Assembly: GCA_015066975.1 (NCBI GenBank)
Contig: SVNI01000007.1
Coordinates: forward strand, 1 to 56,095
DNA length: 56,095 nt
Source: Ruminococcus sp.
GTDB lineage: Bacteria; Bacillota; Clostridia; Oscillospirales; Ruminococcaceae
Direction: 5' to 3'
Shown here: in pieces, positions 50,793-56,095 of the stretch
How the letters are laid out: each line of letters begins with the position of its first letter
Numbering within the stretch: the stretch's first letter is position 1
Translations under genes and position numbers: made by a program
Notes under the pieces: model-generated
What the model was told of the DNA's origin: nothing
What the model saw: the letters and a program-made list of their open reading frames with translations, nothing else
Databases searched by the model: none

Positions 50793-51494
50793 ATGAGCAA
50801 ATTATTAATTGTAGATGATGAGGTCAATATCAGGGCTGTCGTCAGAGAATATGCAGAGTTTGAAGAATATCAGGTGGATGAGGCAGAAAACGGCATGGAG
50901 GCTGTCGAGAAATGTAAGCAGAATGATTATGATTTGATTATCATGGATGTCATGATGCCGAAATTAGACGGTTATTCTGCAAGCAAGGAAATCAAGAAAC
51001 ATAAAAATATCCCGATTATTATGCTTTCTGCAAGGGGAGAAGAATATGATAAATTATTCGGCTTTGAAATCGGTGTGGATGATTATGTTGTAAAACCTTT
51101 TTCTCCCAAAGAACTGATGGCACGTGTCAAGGCGGTTCTCATGAGAAGCCGGGCATCTGCTTCCGTTCCGGCCGAACCGCAGGAAGAAAAACGCGAAACA
51201 CTCATCTTTGAAGGACTAGAAATCGACATGGCCGGCCGTGAAGTCTATGTGGACGGCAAAAAAGCTTCCATGACTCCGAAAGAATATGATTTGTTATTCT
51301 ATCTCGTCCGGAATAAGGGATTAGCCCTCACCCGTGACAAGCTTCTGGAATCCGTCTGGGGATATGATTTCTTCGGCGACGACAGAACAGTTGATACACA
51401 TATCAAAATGCTGAGAAACAGTCTCGGGGAGTATAGAAAATTTATCGTTACGCTCCGCGGTATGGGGTATAAATTTGATGCCAATGCAGAATAA
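50793..51494 (+). CDS. OmpR/PhoB-family response regulator
   Basis: 233 residues. Receiver domain about 1-118: Asp8/Asp9 in IVDDEVN, phospho-acceptor Asp52 in IIMDVMMPKLDG, Ser in IIMLSARGEEYD, Lys in VVKPFSPKEL. Winged-helix DNA-binding domain about 135-230 (MTPKEYDLLFYLVRNKGLALTRDKLLESVWGYDFFGDDRTVDTHIKMLRNSLGEYRKFIVTLRGMGYKF). Phosphorylated members bind direct repeats about 11 bp apart. Such repeats lie right after the cognate kinase gene (52951-52990, 53160-53220). It overlaps the kinase gene. Confidence 0.96.
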   Translation: MSKLLIVDDEVNIRAVVREYAEFEEYQVDEAENGMEAVEKCKQNDYDLIIMDVMMPKLDGYSASKEIKKHKNIPIIMLSARGEEYDKLFGFEIGVDDYVVKPFSPKELMARVKAVLMRSRASASVPAEPQEEKRETLIFEGLEIDMAGREVYVDGKKASMTPKEYDLLFYLVRNKGLALTRDKLLESVWGYDFFGDDRTVDTHIKMLRNSLGEYRKFIVTLRGMGYKFDANAE

Positions 51495-52950
51495 AAATCA
51501 AGTGGAACTGACGGCAGAACAGATGGAAACATCTGCTCATAAACAGAAGCCTAAAAAAGAGAAAAGCCGTCTTTCTCTGCATACCCTTCTGGCAATGGCT
51601 TTTATTATCTTTATCGTAATTACTTCCGGACTGTTACTGCTCGAAGTTGTCTTTCTGGAAAAGTTCTATTATTATTTCAAGATTCAGGAAACACAAAGCC
51701 TTGCCACCCAACTGCTGAACGCTTACGGTTCTGAAAGCTTTGAAGAAACTATGCGTTCGGTATCGTTCCGGAATCAGATATGCATTTCCGTCATTGACAG
51801 CCGGAATTATGTGCTGTATCAGAGTGATGTCATGGGAAACAGATGTCTTCTGCACGGCTGGCATAATTATTTGTTCGATATTCGGCAGGAAATCAAGGAA
51901 AGCGAAAACGGTATGATTTGCGTGGATGTCTTTGATGAGCAAATTAACATGAAAACGCTTGTGCTCGGCAGTGTTATCGGGGATGTCAGCAATCCCGACG
52001 GCTATATGATGTTCAATACAGCTCTTGAACCTGTCGGCACAACCGTGCATCTGTTAAAGCGTCTGCTCCTGATGATTGCATTATTATTATTCTGTGTCGG
52101 CTTTATTATCGCACTGATTGTCTCGAAGCGTCTTTCTGTTCCGATTGTGCAGATTACCGAATCTGCCAAACGCATGGCGCACGGCCATTATGATACGGAA
52201 TTCAAGGGCGGAGGCTATAAAGAAGTTGACGAACTAGCCCAGACACTCACCTATGCAGAACACGAAATCTCAAAAGTCGATACCATGCAGAGAGACTTAA
52301 TCGCGAACGTTTCGCATGACTTGAGAACTCCGCTCACTATGCTGAAAGCTTATGCCGAAATGATTCGCGACCTGTCCGGTGATAATCCTGTCAAGAGAAA
52401 TGCACATCTGCAAGTTATTATAGAAGAAACGGACAGGCTTACCATGCTTGTCAATGATATTCTCGATTTGTCAAAGCTCGAAAACGGCAGTCAGAAGCTC
52501 GAACCCTCTGCTTTTGATGTTACCGCATGGATGACGGAAATCTGTTCGCGTTATAAAGGCGTATCGGAACAGATGGGCTATCATCTGTCATTCACACCGG
52601 ATGAGCCCAGAGAAGTCACCTGTGATGCCGGAAAAATGGAACGCGTTGTCTGCAATCTCATCAACAATGCGATTAACTATACCGGGGATGACAAGCAGGT
52701 TTTCGTCCGGCAGGTCAACACGCCGACGGGTGTCAGAATTGAAGTCCGGGATACTGGCGCAGGTATCGAAGAAGATAAAATCAAGAAAATTTTTGACAAG
52801 TATTACCGAAGTGAAAATCATAAGCGCGAAGTTGTCGGGACAGGTCTGGGATTATCCATTGTCAAGGCCATTCTAAAACTGCATAATTTCGGCTTTGGTG
52901 TCCGTTCCAAACTGGGAGAGGGTTCTGTTTTCTGGTTTGAAATCAAGTAA
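51478..52950 (+). CDS. Sensor histidine kinase
   Basis: About 490 residues. The start is ATG at 51478 (or 51484), overlapping the regulator gene by 11-17 bp, so translation is coupled. Transmembrane helices at about 38-60 and 196-216 flank an extracellular domain of about 130 residues without a recognised fold. HAMP domain about 217-268. HisKA with phospho-His near 280 (LIANVSHDLRTPLTMLKAYAEM). HATPase_c with NLINNAINYT, IEVRDTGAGI and GTGLGLSIVKAI. No PAS domain, so it is not a typical WalK. The signal is unknown. The taa stop is directly followed by the first direct-repeat box. Confidence 0.95.
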   Translation: MPMQNKNQVELTAEQMETSAHKQKPKKEKSRLSLHTLLAMAFIIFIVITSGLLLLEVVFLEKFYYYFKIQETQSLATQLLNAYGSESFEETMRSVSFRNQICISVIDSRNYVLYQSDVMGNRCLLHGWHNYLFDIRQEIKESENGMICVDVFDEQINMKTLVLGSVIGDVSNPDGYMMFNTALEPVGTTVHLLKRLLLMIALLLFCVGFIIALIVSKRLSVPIVQITESAKRMAHGHYDTEFKGGGYKEVDELAQTLTYAEHEISKVDTMQRDLIANVSHDLRTPLTMLKAYAEMIRDLSGDNPVKRNAHLQVIIEETDRLTMLVNDILDLSKLENGSQKLEPSAFDVTAWMTEICSRYKGVSEQMGYHLSFTPDEPREVTCDAGKMERVVCNLINNAINYTGDDKQVFVRQVNTPTGVRIEVRDTGAGIEEDKIKKIFDKYYRSENHKREVVGTGLGLSIVKAILKLHNFGFGVRSKLGEGSVFWFEIK

Positions 52951-53006
52951 TTATCACACGGCTTTCACGAAACTATCATGTATTTTTCATGATAATGCTA
53001 TATAAT
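52951..53006 (+). promoter_or_regulatory. Four 11-bp-spaced direct repeats and -10 box of small RNA unit A
   Basis: Heptamers TTATCAC (52951), CTTTCAC (52962), CTATCAT (52973) and TTTTCAT (52984) at exact 11-bp steps. Ten nt after the last comes TATAAT (53001-53006). There is no separate -35 box. This matches the geometry of PhoB-type boxes (7-bp repeat plus 4 bp, ending 10 nt before the -10). Confidence 0.7.
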
Positions 53007-53012
53007 AAACTA

Positions 53013-53135
53013 TGGTCAGTAAAAGCTGACTGTACTTACTATTGATAATAGCGTTTTACCCCAACGTTATTATAAATCCCCAATAATCCCTATATCATGC
53101 ACAAGAGTCCTCTTTGGAGGATTTTTGTGTTTTTT
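53013..53135 (+). ncRNA. Candidate small RNA, unit A
   Basis: No plausible ORF. In order: hairpin GTCAG / CTGAC (53015-53030); an 11-bp hairpin (53045-53073) with a 7-nt loop TTACCCC; an unpaired stretch with AATCCC twice, then TATATCATG (about 53075-53099); terminator AGTCCTC / GAGGATT with TTTG loop and T-rich tail (53106-53135). About 120 nt. The order and the unpaired stretch are shared with unit B. Confidence 0.7.
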
Positions 53136-53159
53136 CATGCTCAAAAATAATATACAGAA

Positions 53160-53236
53160 CTTTCATATTGTTTTCATGTAATTATCACAAAAGGCCGGCA
53201 TCATAACATGAAATTATCACAAAAGGCTGTTATAAT
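53160..53236 (+). promoter_or_regulatory. Direct repeats and -10 box of small RNA unit B
   Basis: Distal heptamers CTTTCAT (53160), TTTTCAT (53171), TTATCAC (53182) at 11-bp steps. Proximal ATAACAT (53203) and TTATCAC (53214), again 11 bp apart. Then exactly 10 nt and TATAAT (53231-53236). About 20 bp around the two TTATCAC boxes (AATTATCACAAAAGGC) are identical, 32 bp apart. Confidence 0.7.
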
Positions 53237-53240
53237 ACAA

Positions 53241-53375
53241 TTGTTCCCGAAAGAGAACAATATTCTCCCCCTTTTAGAGTAATTAACGTCACTCCAGCGT
53301 TAATTATAAAAATCCCTATAATCCCTATATCATGGCAAAGCTCCCTCTGTTTCGGCAGAGGGAGTTTTGTTTTTT
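53241..53375 (+). ncRNA. Candidate small RNA, unit B
   Basis: No plausible ORF. Hairpin TTGTTC / GAACAA (53241-53260); a CCCCC tract (53267-53271); a hairpin TAATTAACG / CGTTAATTA (53280-53306) with a C-rich loop whose last pair would leave CACTCCA; an unpaired stretch with AATCCC twice, then TATATCATG (about 53309-53333), almost identical to unit A; a strong terminator CTCCCTCTG / CAGAGGGAG (53341-53364) plus T tail. About 130 nt. Confidence 0.72.
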
Positions 53376-53382
53376 CGGGTAT

Positions 53383-53416
53383 TAAAAGAACTGACCGCCG
53401 GAAAGCGGTCAGTTCT
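53383..53416 (-). terminator. Terminator of the aminotransferase gene
   Basis: 12-bp stem AGAACTGACCGC / GCGGTCAGTTCT followed by TTTTAAT on the minus strand. Confidence 0.9.
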
Positions 53417-53423
53417 GGAAAGA

Positions 53424-54698
53424 TTATGCATTCAGCAGTTTTTCGGCAGCAGCCATCTTGACACACAGCACGAACAAATCCATTGCTTTCTGGAGTTCTT
53501 CTGCTTCTGGATAAGAAGGTGCAATTCTGATGTTCTTGTCTTCCGGGTCTTTGCCGTAGGGGAACGCTGCACCTGCACCCGTCAGGACAACGCCGGCTTC
53601 CTTGCAAAGCTGAACAATCCGCTTTGCACAGCCTTCCGGTGCGTTGAAAGATACAAAATAGCCGCCCTTCGGTTCTGTCCATTCACCAATGCCAAGAGGC
53701 TTGATTTCTGCATTGAGCGTATCCAGAACAATTCTGAATTTCGGTTCGAGCAGAGCACGCTGTTTTTCCATGTGTGCCAGAATATTTTCATATTTGCCGT
53801 CAAAGAATTTCACATGGCGCATCTGATTGATTTTATCAAAGCTGATAGTGAACGCACCGAGAGCCTTTGTCAGGTCTTTCAGATTTTCTTTGGAAGCAGC
53901 CAGCAGGGAAACACCTGCACCGGCATGAGTGATTTTTGCAGTGGATGCGAAAATATAAACAATATTTTCATTGCCGTTCTTTCGGGCTTCTTCCAGAATC
54001 GGCAGAATCACTTTAGGATTGTCACACAGATGATGAATACAATAGGCATTATCCCAGAAAATACGGAAATCCTTTGCAGCAGGTTTCAGAGCAGCAAATC
54101 TCTTGACAGTTTCATCACTGTAAACTACACCAGACGGATTGGAATACTGCGGCACACACCAGATGCCCTTGATGCTGTCATCTTCTGCGACAAGCTTTTC
54201 AATCATGTCCATATCAGGGCCGTTTTCACTAGTCGGGATGTTAATCATTTCGATACCGAAAAATTCAGTAATTCTGAAATGTCTGTCATAACCCGGCACA
54301 GGACACAGGAATTTTACAGTGTCGAGCTTTCTCCACGGGGTGTTGCCCAGCAGGCCGTGCGTATAAGCATAGCTGATAGTCATGTACATTGCCTGAAGAC
54401 TGGCATTGCCGAACATGAACATTTCATCCGGCTGAACACCTACCATAGGGGCAAATAGTCTCTTGGCTTCCGGGATGCCGTCCAGAAGACCATAGTTTCT
54501 GTAATCTCCTGCTTCTCCGTTCAGGTCATCATTTGTCAGGCAGGTGAGCAGACCGGCACTCAGGTCAAGCTGTTTCGGGGAGGGCTTGCCTCTGGACATA
54601 TCCAGTTTTAAATTCTGGGACTGGTAGTCCGCGTAAGTTTTTTTGCATTCTTCATAAAATGCAGAAAGTTCTGCTGTCTGGTAATCTCTCAGGTTCAT
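53424..54698 (-). CDS. PLP-dependent aminotransferase (MocR-like aspartate/alanine type)
   Basis: 424 residues, fold type I. Features: LKLDMSRGKPSPKQLDLS near the start, MFGNASLQAMYMTISYA, PVPGYDRHF, the GIWCVPQYSNPSGVVYSDE segment, DNAYCIHHL, and PLP-lysine in IFASTAKITHAGAGVSLL. The last part has APSYPEAEELQKAM. The pattern fits the clostridial aspartate/alanine aminotransferase group (Aminotran_MocR). Exact substrate unproven. GAAAGGAAAG lies before the ATG. Monocistronic. Confidence 0.92.
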   Translation of the reverse strand: MNLRDYQTAELSAFYEECKKTYADYQSQNLKLDMSRGKPSPKQLDLSAGLLTCLTNDDLNGEAGDYRNYGLLDGIPEAKRLFAPMVGVQPDEMFMFGNASLQAMYMTISYAYTHGLLGNTPWRKLDTVKFLCPVPGYDRHFRITEFFGIEMINIPTSENGPDMDMIEKLVAEDDSIKGIWCVPQYSNPSGVVYSDETVKRFAALKPAAKDFRIFWDNAYCIHHLCDNPKVILPILEEARKNGNENIVYIFASTAKITHAGAGVSLLAASKENLKDLTKALGAFTISFDKINQMRHVKFFDGKYENILAHMEKQRALLEPKFRIVLDTLNAEIKPLGIGEWTEPKGGYFVSFNAPEGCAKRIVQLCKEAGVVLTGAGAAFPYGKDPEDKNIRIAPSYPEAEELQKAMDLFVLCVKMAAAEKLLNA

Positions 54699-54961: not shown

Positions 54962-55164
54962 AATAATATTGTGAATGATATGGATACGCTGTCCACAGCA
55001 GCAATTTATATCTGTAAGCTTGCGCAGGCGTATTTGCGGCTTTATATATTATTATTAATTTTTTTTTGAAAATTGAACAAATACAGGAAGCGGCATTTAC
55101 CGCCTGAGTGGAGTTTTTGCAATTAAATCATGAAAACTTTACAAATTTAAGGGAGGTAATGCAG
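54962..55164 (+). other. Long 5' leader of rny
   Basis: About 200 nt without an ORF that I would support. It contains AAGCGGCATTTACCGCCT (55087-55104), a short GCGG/CCGC hairpin, and an A/T-rich middle. No terminator is visible. Confidence 0.5.
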
Positions 55165-56095
55165 ATGATAGGTCTTTTGATTGGAGTAATTGTCGTACTG
55201 ATTGCGGCTGTTGTCTTTGTCTGGAAATTCTATTCCGGAAAAGTACAGTCCGCTGAAAAAGAAGGCTTTGAAAAAGGTGTGGAACACCGCCGGAAAGAAG
55301 ACGAAGCGGCACTCAGTTCCGCCCGGAAAGCTGCCGAGGCTGAAATGCAGACTGCCAGAGAAAAAATCGCTGAAGCAGAACGCTTGATACAACAGGCACA
55401 GCACCAGTTTGAAGAAGCTGACAAAGAAGCCGAAAACCGGAAAAAAGAAATTCTGGTCGAAGCCAAAGACGAAATTTATAAACTCCGTCAGGAAGCAGAA
55501 AAAGAAATCCGCGACAGAAGAAACGAAATCTCTAAACAGGAACGCCGGATTCATCAGAAAGAAGAAACACTCGATAAGAAAATCGACACAATCGAACAAA
55601 AAGAAGAGGCTGTTCAGGAAAAAATCAAGGCTGTTGAAACATTAAAGGAAGAAACCGAAACCATCCGCCAGGCACAGTTGAGCACACTCGAACGCATCTC
55701 GGAATTCACCCGCGAACAGGCAAAAGAATATATGCTCAAAACGCTCGAAGAAGATTTGGTTCACGAAAAGGCTGTGAAAATTTCTTCTTATGAACAGCAG
55801 CTCAAAGAAGAATGCGAAGAAAAAGCAAGAAGCTATATTTCTCTTGCTATTGCAAAATGTGCTTCTGACCAGGTTTCTGAAGCGGCAGTTTCCGTTGTGG
55901 CTCTGCCAAATGACGAAATGAAGGGCAGAATTATCGGCCGTGAAGGCCGTAATATCCGGACACTCGAAACACTCACCGGTGTGGATTTGATTATTGATGA
56001 TACACCGGAAGCTATCACACTCTCATGCTTTGACCAGGTGCGCCGTGAAATTGCCAGAATTGCTCTCGAAAGGCTCATTGCTGACGGCCGTATTC
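55165..56095 (+). CDS. rny: Ribonuclease Y, N-terminal part (cut by window end)
   Basis: 310 codons in view, open at the right edge. One transmembrane helix at about 3-22 ([20 protein letters not shown]), a long charged coiled coil at about 28-200 and then the KH domain with [34 protein letters not shown]. The HD hydrolase domain should follow outside the window. RNase Y is the membrane-bound endonuclease that initiates mRNA decay in Firmicutes. ATG 55165 is 8 nt after GGGAGG; the ATG at 55159 is too close. Confidence 0.97.

Follow-up and report, generated by a model that had tools for sequence, protein, structure and literature searches.

Two short non-coding units of similar build follow the sensor kinase gene of a two-component system in a Ruminococcus genome, and they raise the question of whether they are RNA genes and, if so, what kind of system the neighboring regulator and kinase control. 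We consider this for the window, by which we mean the whole 56,095-nucleotide stretch of DNA that was analyzed. Our preferred answer, to which we assign a probability of roughly 60%, is that the units, A and B, belong to a conserved family and represent predicted small-RNA genes, that the regulator of the locus likely activates htrA and both RNAs under envelope or secretion stress, and that the RNAs mask ribosome sites. The first-pass annotation had described two non-coding units behind the kinase gene, and both are found there, strongly folding and terminator-ended, among the following features.

50793..51494, + strand: response regulator of the OmpR/PhoB class (receiver plus winged helix; Pfam Response_reg and Trans_reg_C over cut-off)
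51475..52950, + strand: membrane sensor histidine kinase (HisKA and HATPase_c over cut-off, HAMP just below)
52952..52991, + strand: four direct repeats at 11 bp before unit A, a predicted regulator box (from the sequence, with the 11-bp spacing specific over 63 units)
53001..53006, + strand: TATAAT, predicted -10 of unit A (from the sequence)
53012..53135, + strand: unit A, predicted small RNA (fold z -6.6; covariance model match at 53033-53134; family alignment)
53161..53221, + strand: direct repeats before unit B (from the sequence and the box count over units)
53231..53236, + strand: TATAAT, predicted -10 of unit B (from the sequence and a promoter scan)
53242..53375, + strand: unit B, predicted small RNA (fold z -6.4; covariance model match at 53268-53376)
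53424..54698, - strand: aspartate aminotransferase type Ic (NCBIfam NF053594 over cut-off), also adjoining in many relatives

The kinase is listed with a TTG start at 51475, and searches were run with 51481-52950. The regulator matches the NCBIfam PhoB-type models below their own cut-offs, and the solved regulators nearest to it in sequence are PhoP and RegX3, which confirms its class and nothing finer. The aminotransferase is a convergent neighbor of unit B and stands outside the system; an RNase Y gene (55108-56094, cut by the end of the window) is a kept neighbor of the aminotransferase where the latter lies beside a unit B or C. One genome, G035, has two full loci of regulator, kinase, A, and B (L067 on contig C39 and L068 on C84), which reflect either duplication or a mixed assembly, with contamination given as 4%.

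Both units contain TAATCCCTATATCATG and share one order of parts: 11-bp direct repeats and TATAAT come first, then a 5' hairpin and a second hairpin whose loop is C-rich (the C-loop hairpin), then an unpaired C-rich stretch with AATCCCTATATCATG at its end, and last a terminator. In unit A, TWTCAY words start at 52952, 52963, 52974, and 52985, exactly 11 bp apart, and are followed by hairpins at 53012-53033 and 53045-53073 (the latter with the loop TTACCCC), the unpaired stretch AAATCCCCAATAATCCCTATATCAT at 53074-53098 with the core at 53085-53099, and a terminator with its stem at 53099-53130 and a T-run up to 53135. The unit B repeats start at 53161, 53172, and 53183, and then again at 53204 and 53215; its 5' hairpin spans 53242-53259, the C-loop hairpin 53279-53307, the unpaired stretch 53308-53333 with the core at 53320-53334, and the terminator stem 53334-53371 with a T-run up to 53375. 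For neither unit did any of 200 dinucleotide shuffles fold as well. A doubled AATCCC had been described for both units, which is correct for B; in A the doubling takes the form AATCCCC plus AATCCC, and the B-like units of loci L065 and L098 have a single AATCCC. The proximal repeat block of unit B is itself doubled in the window (53183-53221, with TATCACA at 53183 and 53215, 32 bp apart), unlike the B promoters of most relatives, which have one block. A start codon within the core (at CATG, before the terminator) is ruled out by CATA in the A units of L096 and L097 and in L109. The sharing of the core by A and B is not due to chance, since its own genome holds exactly two exact copies of the 15-mer AATCCCTATATCATG and the pair recurs across the genus.

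The 15-mer is present with at most one mismatch in 45 of the 120 genomes searched (own genome included), and 31 of the 38 genus genomes have the exact core, most of them in two copies. A covariance search among relatives, proposed in the first-pass annotation, finds the family conserved well beyond its own genome, with matches in 67 of 396 family genomes at E ≤ 0.01 over 27 of 126 genera, a count that takes in many weak matches, two of the weakest of which (L169 and L170) proved unlike members when fetched. Thirteen loci with a one-mismatch 15-mer (L106-L108 and L110-L119), coding or unstructured DNA in appearance, were left out before counting, as was L120, a second copy of a stretch in L088. 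The 64 units sorted comprise 33 of type A, 15 of type B, 14 of type C, and two B-like units with a single AATCCC; A and B (or B-like) stand in tandem at 17 loci, the window included, and type C copies are found elsewhere in other genomes, some beside the same aminotransferase gene. Type C units have no 5' hairpin, so that the core RNA consists of the C-loop hairpin, the unpaired stretch, and the terminator. Raw 15-mer matches were also obtained for 27 stretches in a viral collection, and named records with the core, among the matches listed and judged by title, include Ruminococcus flavefaciens ND2009 and YL228 and many Ruminococcus MAGs (at least 119 stretches).

The C-loop hairpin is well supported by the alignment of 63 distinct rows: all seven pairs are changed on both sides in some rows, 94.6% of its cells pair (72.4 in shuffles), and its covariation is 0.594, compared with 0.199 for shuffles and no more than 0.178 for slid controls. 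Terminator stems vary in sequence between members, yet they form in the single folds read; these pairs were misaligned and are therefore missing from the covariance model R1. Selection accounts for part of the invariance of the core over the 63 rows, since they were found with the core at no more than one mismatch, and it is the kinase-anchored count given below that is free of this bias. In g3, g127, and g129, where the unit stands apart from the kinase, more distant members have sequences such as AACCCCCCAATAATCCTATATCATAATCTT, with ACCCC in the terminator loop of several; they change the rest of the core and keep the C-runs, which are thus the lasting feature. Several of the loci concerned (L155-L168), none of them beside the kinase, carry at least one additional hairpin with a TTTACCCC loop, as if C-loops had multiplied.

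Searched against Rfam 15 at gathering thresholds, the whole window yields one tRNA elsewhere and nothing at the units, and the region 52951-53420 at E ≤ 10 gives 16 sub-threshold matches, none to LhrC, csRNA, or RsaE; the best is a weak match to Hrs13 (E 0.018, 53384-53420, minus strand). At curated thresholds, the units match no known RNA family. Among the titles inspected from the open-access literature on Ruminococcus small RNAs, none names anything of this kind, and a survey of structured RNAs from the human microbiome (PMC8040213) could include it. By sequence comparison, the units are members of a conserved family of predicted small RNAs that is absent from Rfam and has a firm genetic context. 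The initial view of them as a regulatory-RNA family is borne out in its RNA-like units, its conserved C-rich unpaired core, and its tie to a two-component locus and to repeats.

The genetic context is established most directly from the kinase, an orthologue of which is present in 30 of 38 genus genomes. Of 31 kinase loci looked at, two (L450 and L469) were dropped because they have no DNA downstream, and in a search anchored on the kinase the core lies 88-389 nt downstream in 28 of the remaining 29 (at L448 and L449 the exact core counted is that of unit B, unit A having one mismatch). The 29th locus, L451 (G015), has a shorter, diverged unit with repeats, C-runs, and a terminator but without the exact core. 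In six other genera, a unit lies 110-905 nt behind the kinase in 18 genomes, and 20 further kinase loci walked by eye add diverged units in two more genera (L322 in G191 and L336 in G258) that keep repeats, C-runs, and terminator and have lost the exact core; the remaining 18 showed none, and in some of them the unit lies in another part of the genome. The kinase is more widespread than the RNA and is found in 178 of 396 family genomes at E ≤ 1e-90.

The repeats before the units form a box with a strict spacing. TWTCAY-N5-TWTCACA at 11 bp is matched exactly by 42, within one mismatch by 54, and within two by all of the 63 units (of 64) with enough upstream DNA, although these counts come from related genomes and are not independent events; each of the spacings 8-10 and 12-15 yields at most one exact match. 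Distances between T[AT]TCA[CT] words likewise pile up at 11, 22, and 33 bp (72, 35, and 17). Among 771 sampled gene upstream stretches taken as background there are no exact and 10 one-mismatch boxes at 11 bp, and 0-1 exact and 1-3 one-mismatch boxes at spacings of 9, 10, 12, and 13. Distant units, scored with a slightly looser pattern, match exactly at 11 bp in 26 of 39 cases and within one mismatch in 36, and never exactly at spacings of 8-10 or 12-14 (39 of 41 units were used, the weak covariance matches L169 and L170 being left out). The regulator's own promoter has a box within one mismatch at one of 27 loci and none at the others, so the connection between box and regulator rests on linkage.

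Genome-wide, the box at one mismatch occurs at 115 places, compared with 18 for the reversed pattern, but most of the 30 that were read have no -10, and we do not take these places as a list of regulon members. In an 834-kb sample, about a third of one genome, the one-mismatch box joined to a -10 is not specific (two places at 11 bp and 0-3 at other spacings), and htrA is the one place that combines an exact box with a -10 at 7-11 nt; neither unit A nor unit B fits this strict form. Elsewhere in the genome, a repeated element at L171, L172, and L173 (contigs C89 and C117) has TTTCAC-N5-TTTCACA flanked by AATTTGTCAATA and no -10 after it. A lipoprotein gene with a Cthe_2159 carbohydrate-binding domain (L371:13002-14375, contig C19) has a one-mismatch box with TATAAT downstream and is a possible further member of the regulon.

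The gene marked by the exact box codes for a 475-amino-acid membrane-anchored protease with Trypsin_2 and PDZ domains over cut-off, for which the best NCBIfam models are DegP/HtrA, below their curated cut-offs; its promoter reads TGTCAT-N5-TATCACA-N8-TATAAT. An htrA gene is present in 34 of 38 genus genomes, and of the 30 loci fetched, all 27 with enough upstream DNA have the box before htrA, 12 exactly and 27 within one mismatch. At up to two mismatches, the box precedes neither of two comparison genes (ftsE, 0 of 30 loci; uvrA, 0 of 28). Outside the genus, the best HtrA match has the box exactly in 24 of 30 genomes and within one mismatch in 26, in a set spanning 12 genera of which 25 genomes were chosen for having the RNA, and with the first half of the box loosened to TNTCAY. 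Two of these 24 (L500 and L501), from genomes with no detected RNA, have no -10 after the box; G200, G275, and G240, also with no detected RNA, have both box and -10 at htrA. On contig C12 of G240 (79944-82713), htrA adjoins the kinase orthologue in convergent orientation. We infer that htrA was the older target and the RNAs a later addition. The box shared with htrA is the main new information here and indicates what kind of system the locus encodes.

An OmpR-class regulator acting over htrA and C-rich sibling RNAs has been described for CiaRH and the csRNAs of Streptococcus (PMC3091779, PMC8186281) and, as a second case, for LisRK and LhrC of Listeria monocytogenes (PMC4132741, PMC11236296, PMC5880928). 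In the latter, htrA and lhrC1-5 are both listed under LisK (PMC11236296), the multicopy LhrC1-5 block ribosome sites through three mutually redundant CU-rich motifs, located in a loop, in a single strand, and in the loop of the terminator (PMC4132741), and the targets given as known are surface-exposed proteins (PMC5880928). Two features of such systems are present here, namely more than one copy with C-runs in loop and single strand, in a layout much like that of LhrC as described, and one box on the predicted RNAs and htrA. In contrast to LhrC, the region 52951-53420 has no Rfam LhrC match at E ≤ 10, the core is AATCCCTATATCATG rather than CUCCC...UUUU, and one copy sits in the regulator locus. 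CiaRH, described as confined to streptococci (PMC8186281), uses the repeat TTTAAG-N5-TTTAAG, whereas TWTCAY-N5-TWTCACA is found here in 63 of 63 units within two mismatches, and the CiaR recognition helix VVEVYVSKVRKKL (PMC3091779) is unlike the matching stretch RTVDTHIKMLRNSL when compared by eye. A C-rich unpaired motif is also shared with RsaE/RoxS (UCCC is given for RsaE, RNAIII, SprD, and FsrA in PMC4132741). The units differ from RsaE/RoxS in having no Rfam match. We know of no HtrA-type box context for RsaE.

With a sequence unlike both, and a repeat and (by eye) a recognition helix unlike those of CiaRH, the resemblance is best taken as likeness and not as membership. The best reading is thus an HtrA-type envelope-stress system with a predicted C-rich RNA arm, akin to but not a member of CiaRH/csRNA or LisRK/LhrC. 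Whether it is a third, independently evolved HtrA-controlling stress system, with its own C-rich translation-blocking RNAs, spread through a fiber-degrading gut family, usually encoded in the regulator locus, and braking protein synthesis while HtrA clears damage, is in our estimation an even bet.

The 11-bp repeats before A, B, and htrA suggest that the locus regulator likely switches on all three together. The kinase would sense trouble outside the membrane, and the phosphorylated regulator would bind the TWTCAY-N5-TWTCACA repeats, which closely precede the -10. HtrA would then degrade or refold damaged exported proteins, and the RNAs, once transcribed, may cover the ribosome-binding sites of selected mRNAs with the C-run in the hairpin loop and one or two in the unpaired stretch. 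This would lower translation of those mRNAs, perhaps with Hfq, for which 21 of 21 genus genomes have a match over cut-off.

Target prediction with the conserved seed, as the first-pass annotation had advised, did not single out mRNAs for such masking. Among 780 simple ORF calls in the 834-kb sample, 38 start regions pair with the core of A at -14 kcal/mol or better (mean of 48.3 for shuffled cores) and 26 with that of B (mean of 37.6); 44 and 47 of 60 shuffles, respectively, gave at least as many strong pairings as the real cores, and exported proteins are not preferred among the predicted targets. The start regions of ftsE and uvrA are among the best in their own genome (-22.8 and -19.0), together with those of C88:93017, C47:27007, and uvrB, but ftsE and uvrA fail as conserved targets, since among the loci of relatives no more than 8 of 30 and 7 of 28, respectively, reach -12. 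We also reject autoregulation through the ribosome site of the regulator, as GGGG is found there in a minority of genomes only. Given simple ORF calling and coverage of a third of one genome, a few specific targets may still exist.

These negative predictions would fit RNAs that are real and box-controlled but use the conserved AUCCCUAUAUCAUG and the C-runs mainly to bind or titrate a protein. Near letter-for-letter conservation of the core in the genus and beyond, more than pairing with changing targets needs, points the same way, but distant members keep the C-runs while changing the rest, and C-runs in loops and single strands are also the arrangement of LhrC, whose CU-rich motifs are described as binding ribosome sites (PMC4132741); we regard titration as unlikely. 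The two units could also act only in cis, with A serving mainly to end and terminate the regulator-kinase mRNA at its 3' side and B a duplicate of it. From the kinase stop (52950) up to unit A no terminator is seen, so that a read-through RNA would contain A. However, repeats and a -10 stand between the kinase and A, copies of types B and C at a distance from the kinase are preceded by repeats of their own, and conservation extends to the unpaired core, which a terminator would not require. An origin as mere mRNA ends is decidedly improbable.

The identity of the controlling regulator is a separate matter. If a different response regulator bound the repeats, the linkage of unit A to the kinase would be historical, as the lack of a clear box at the locus regulator's own promoter and the distance of the unit from the kinase in some genomes might indicate; we find this quite unlikely, with linkage in 28 of 29 genus loci (29 with the diverged one) and in 18 genomes of six other genera, and with htrA beside the kinase in G240. 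The repeats had been called PhoB-box-like, and the likeness is fair as to form: the regulator is of the PhoB class, and 11-bp TNTCAY repeats resemble the Pho box as it is generally known. An actual PhoB/PhoR phosphate system, with the RNAs as part of the phosphate response, is nonetheless scarcely credible, as the PstS model has no match in the genome of the window, any match in 7 of 21 genus genomes, and one over cut-off in 1 of 21 (with 13 of 14 control genomes positive), the PhoB models score below cut-off, and the shared box stands at htrA.

Under the reading that we prefer, in which a C-rich RNA arm belongs to an HtrA-type envelope-stress system, the Ruminococcus of rumen and gut gain a candidate envelope-stress regulon of htrA and two RNAs, defined by a box that can be searched for, and the joining of an HtrA system to C-rich RNAs suggests more than one origin for this arrangement. 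Rumen and gut Ruminococcus are thought to secrete heavy loads of enzymes, and a brake on translation under envelope stress would therefore bear on fiber digestion.
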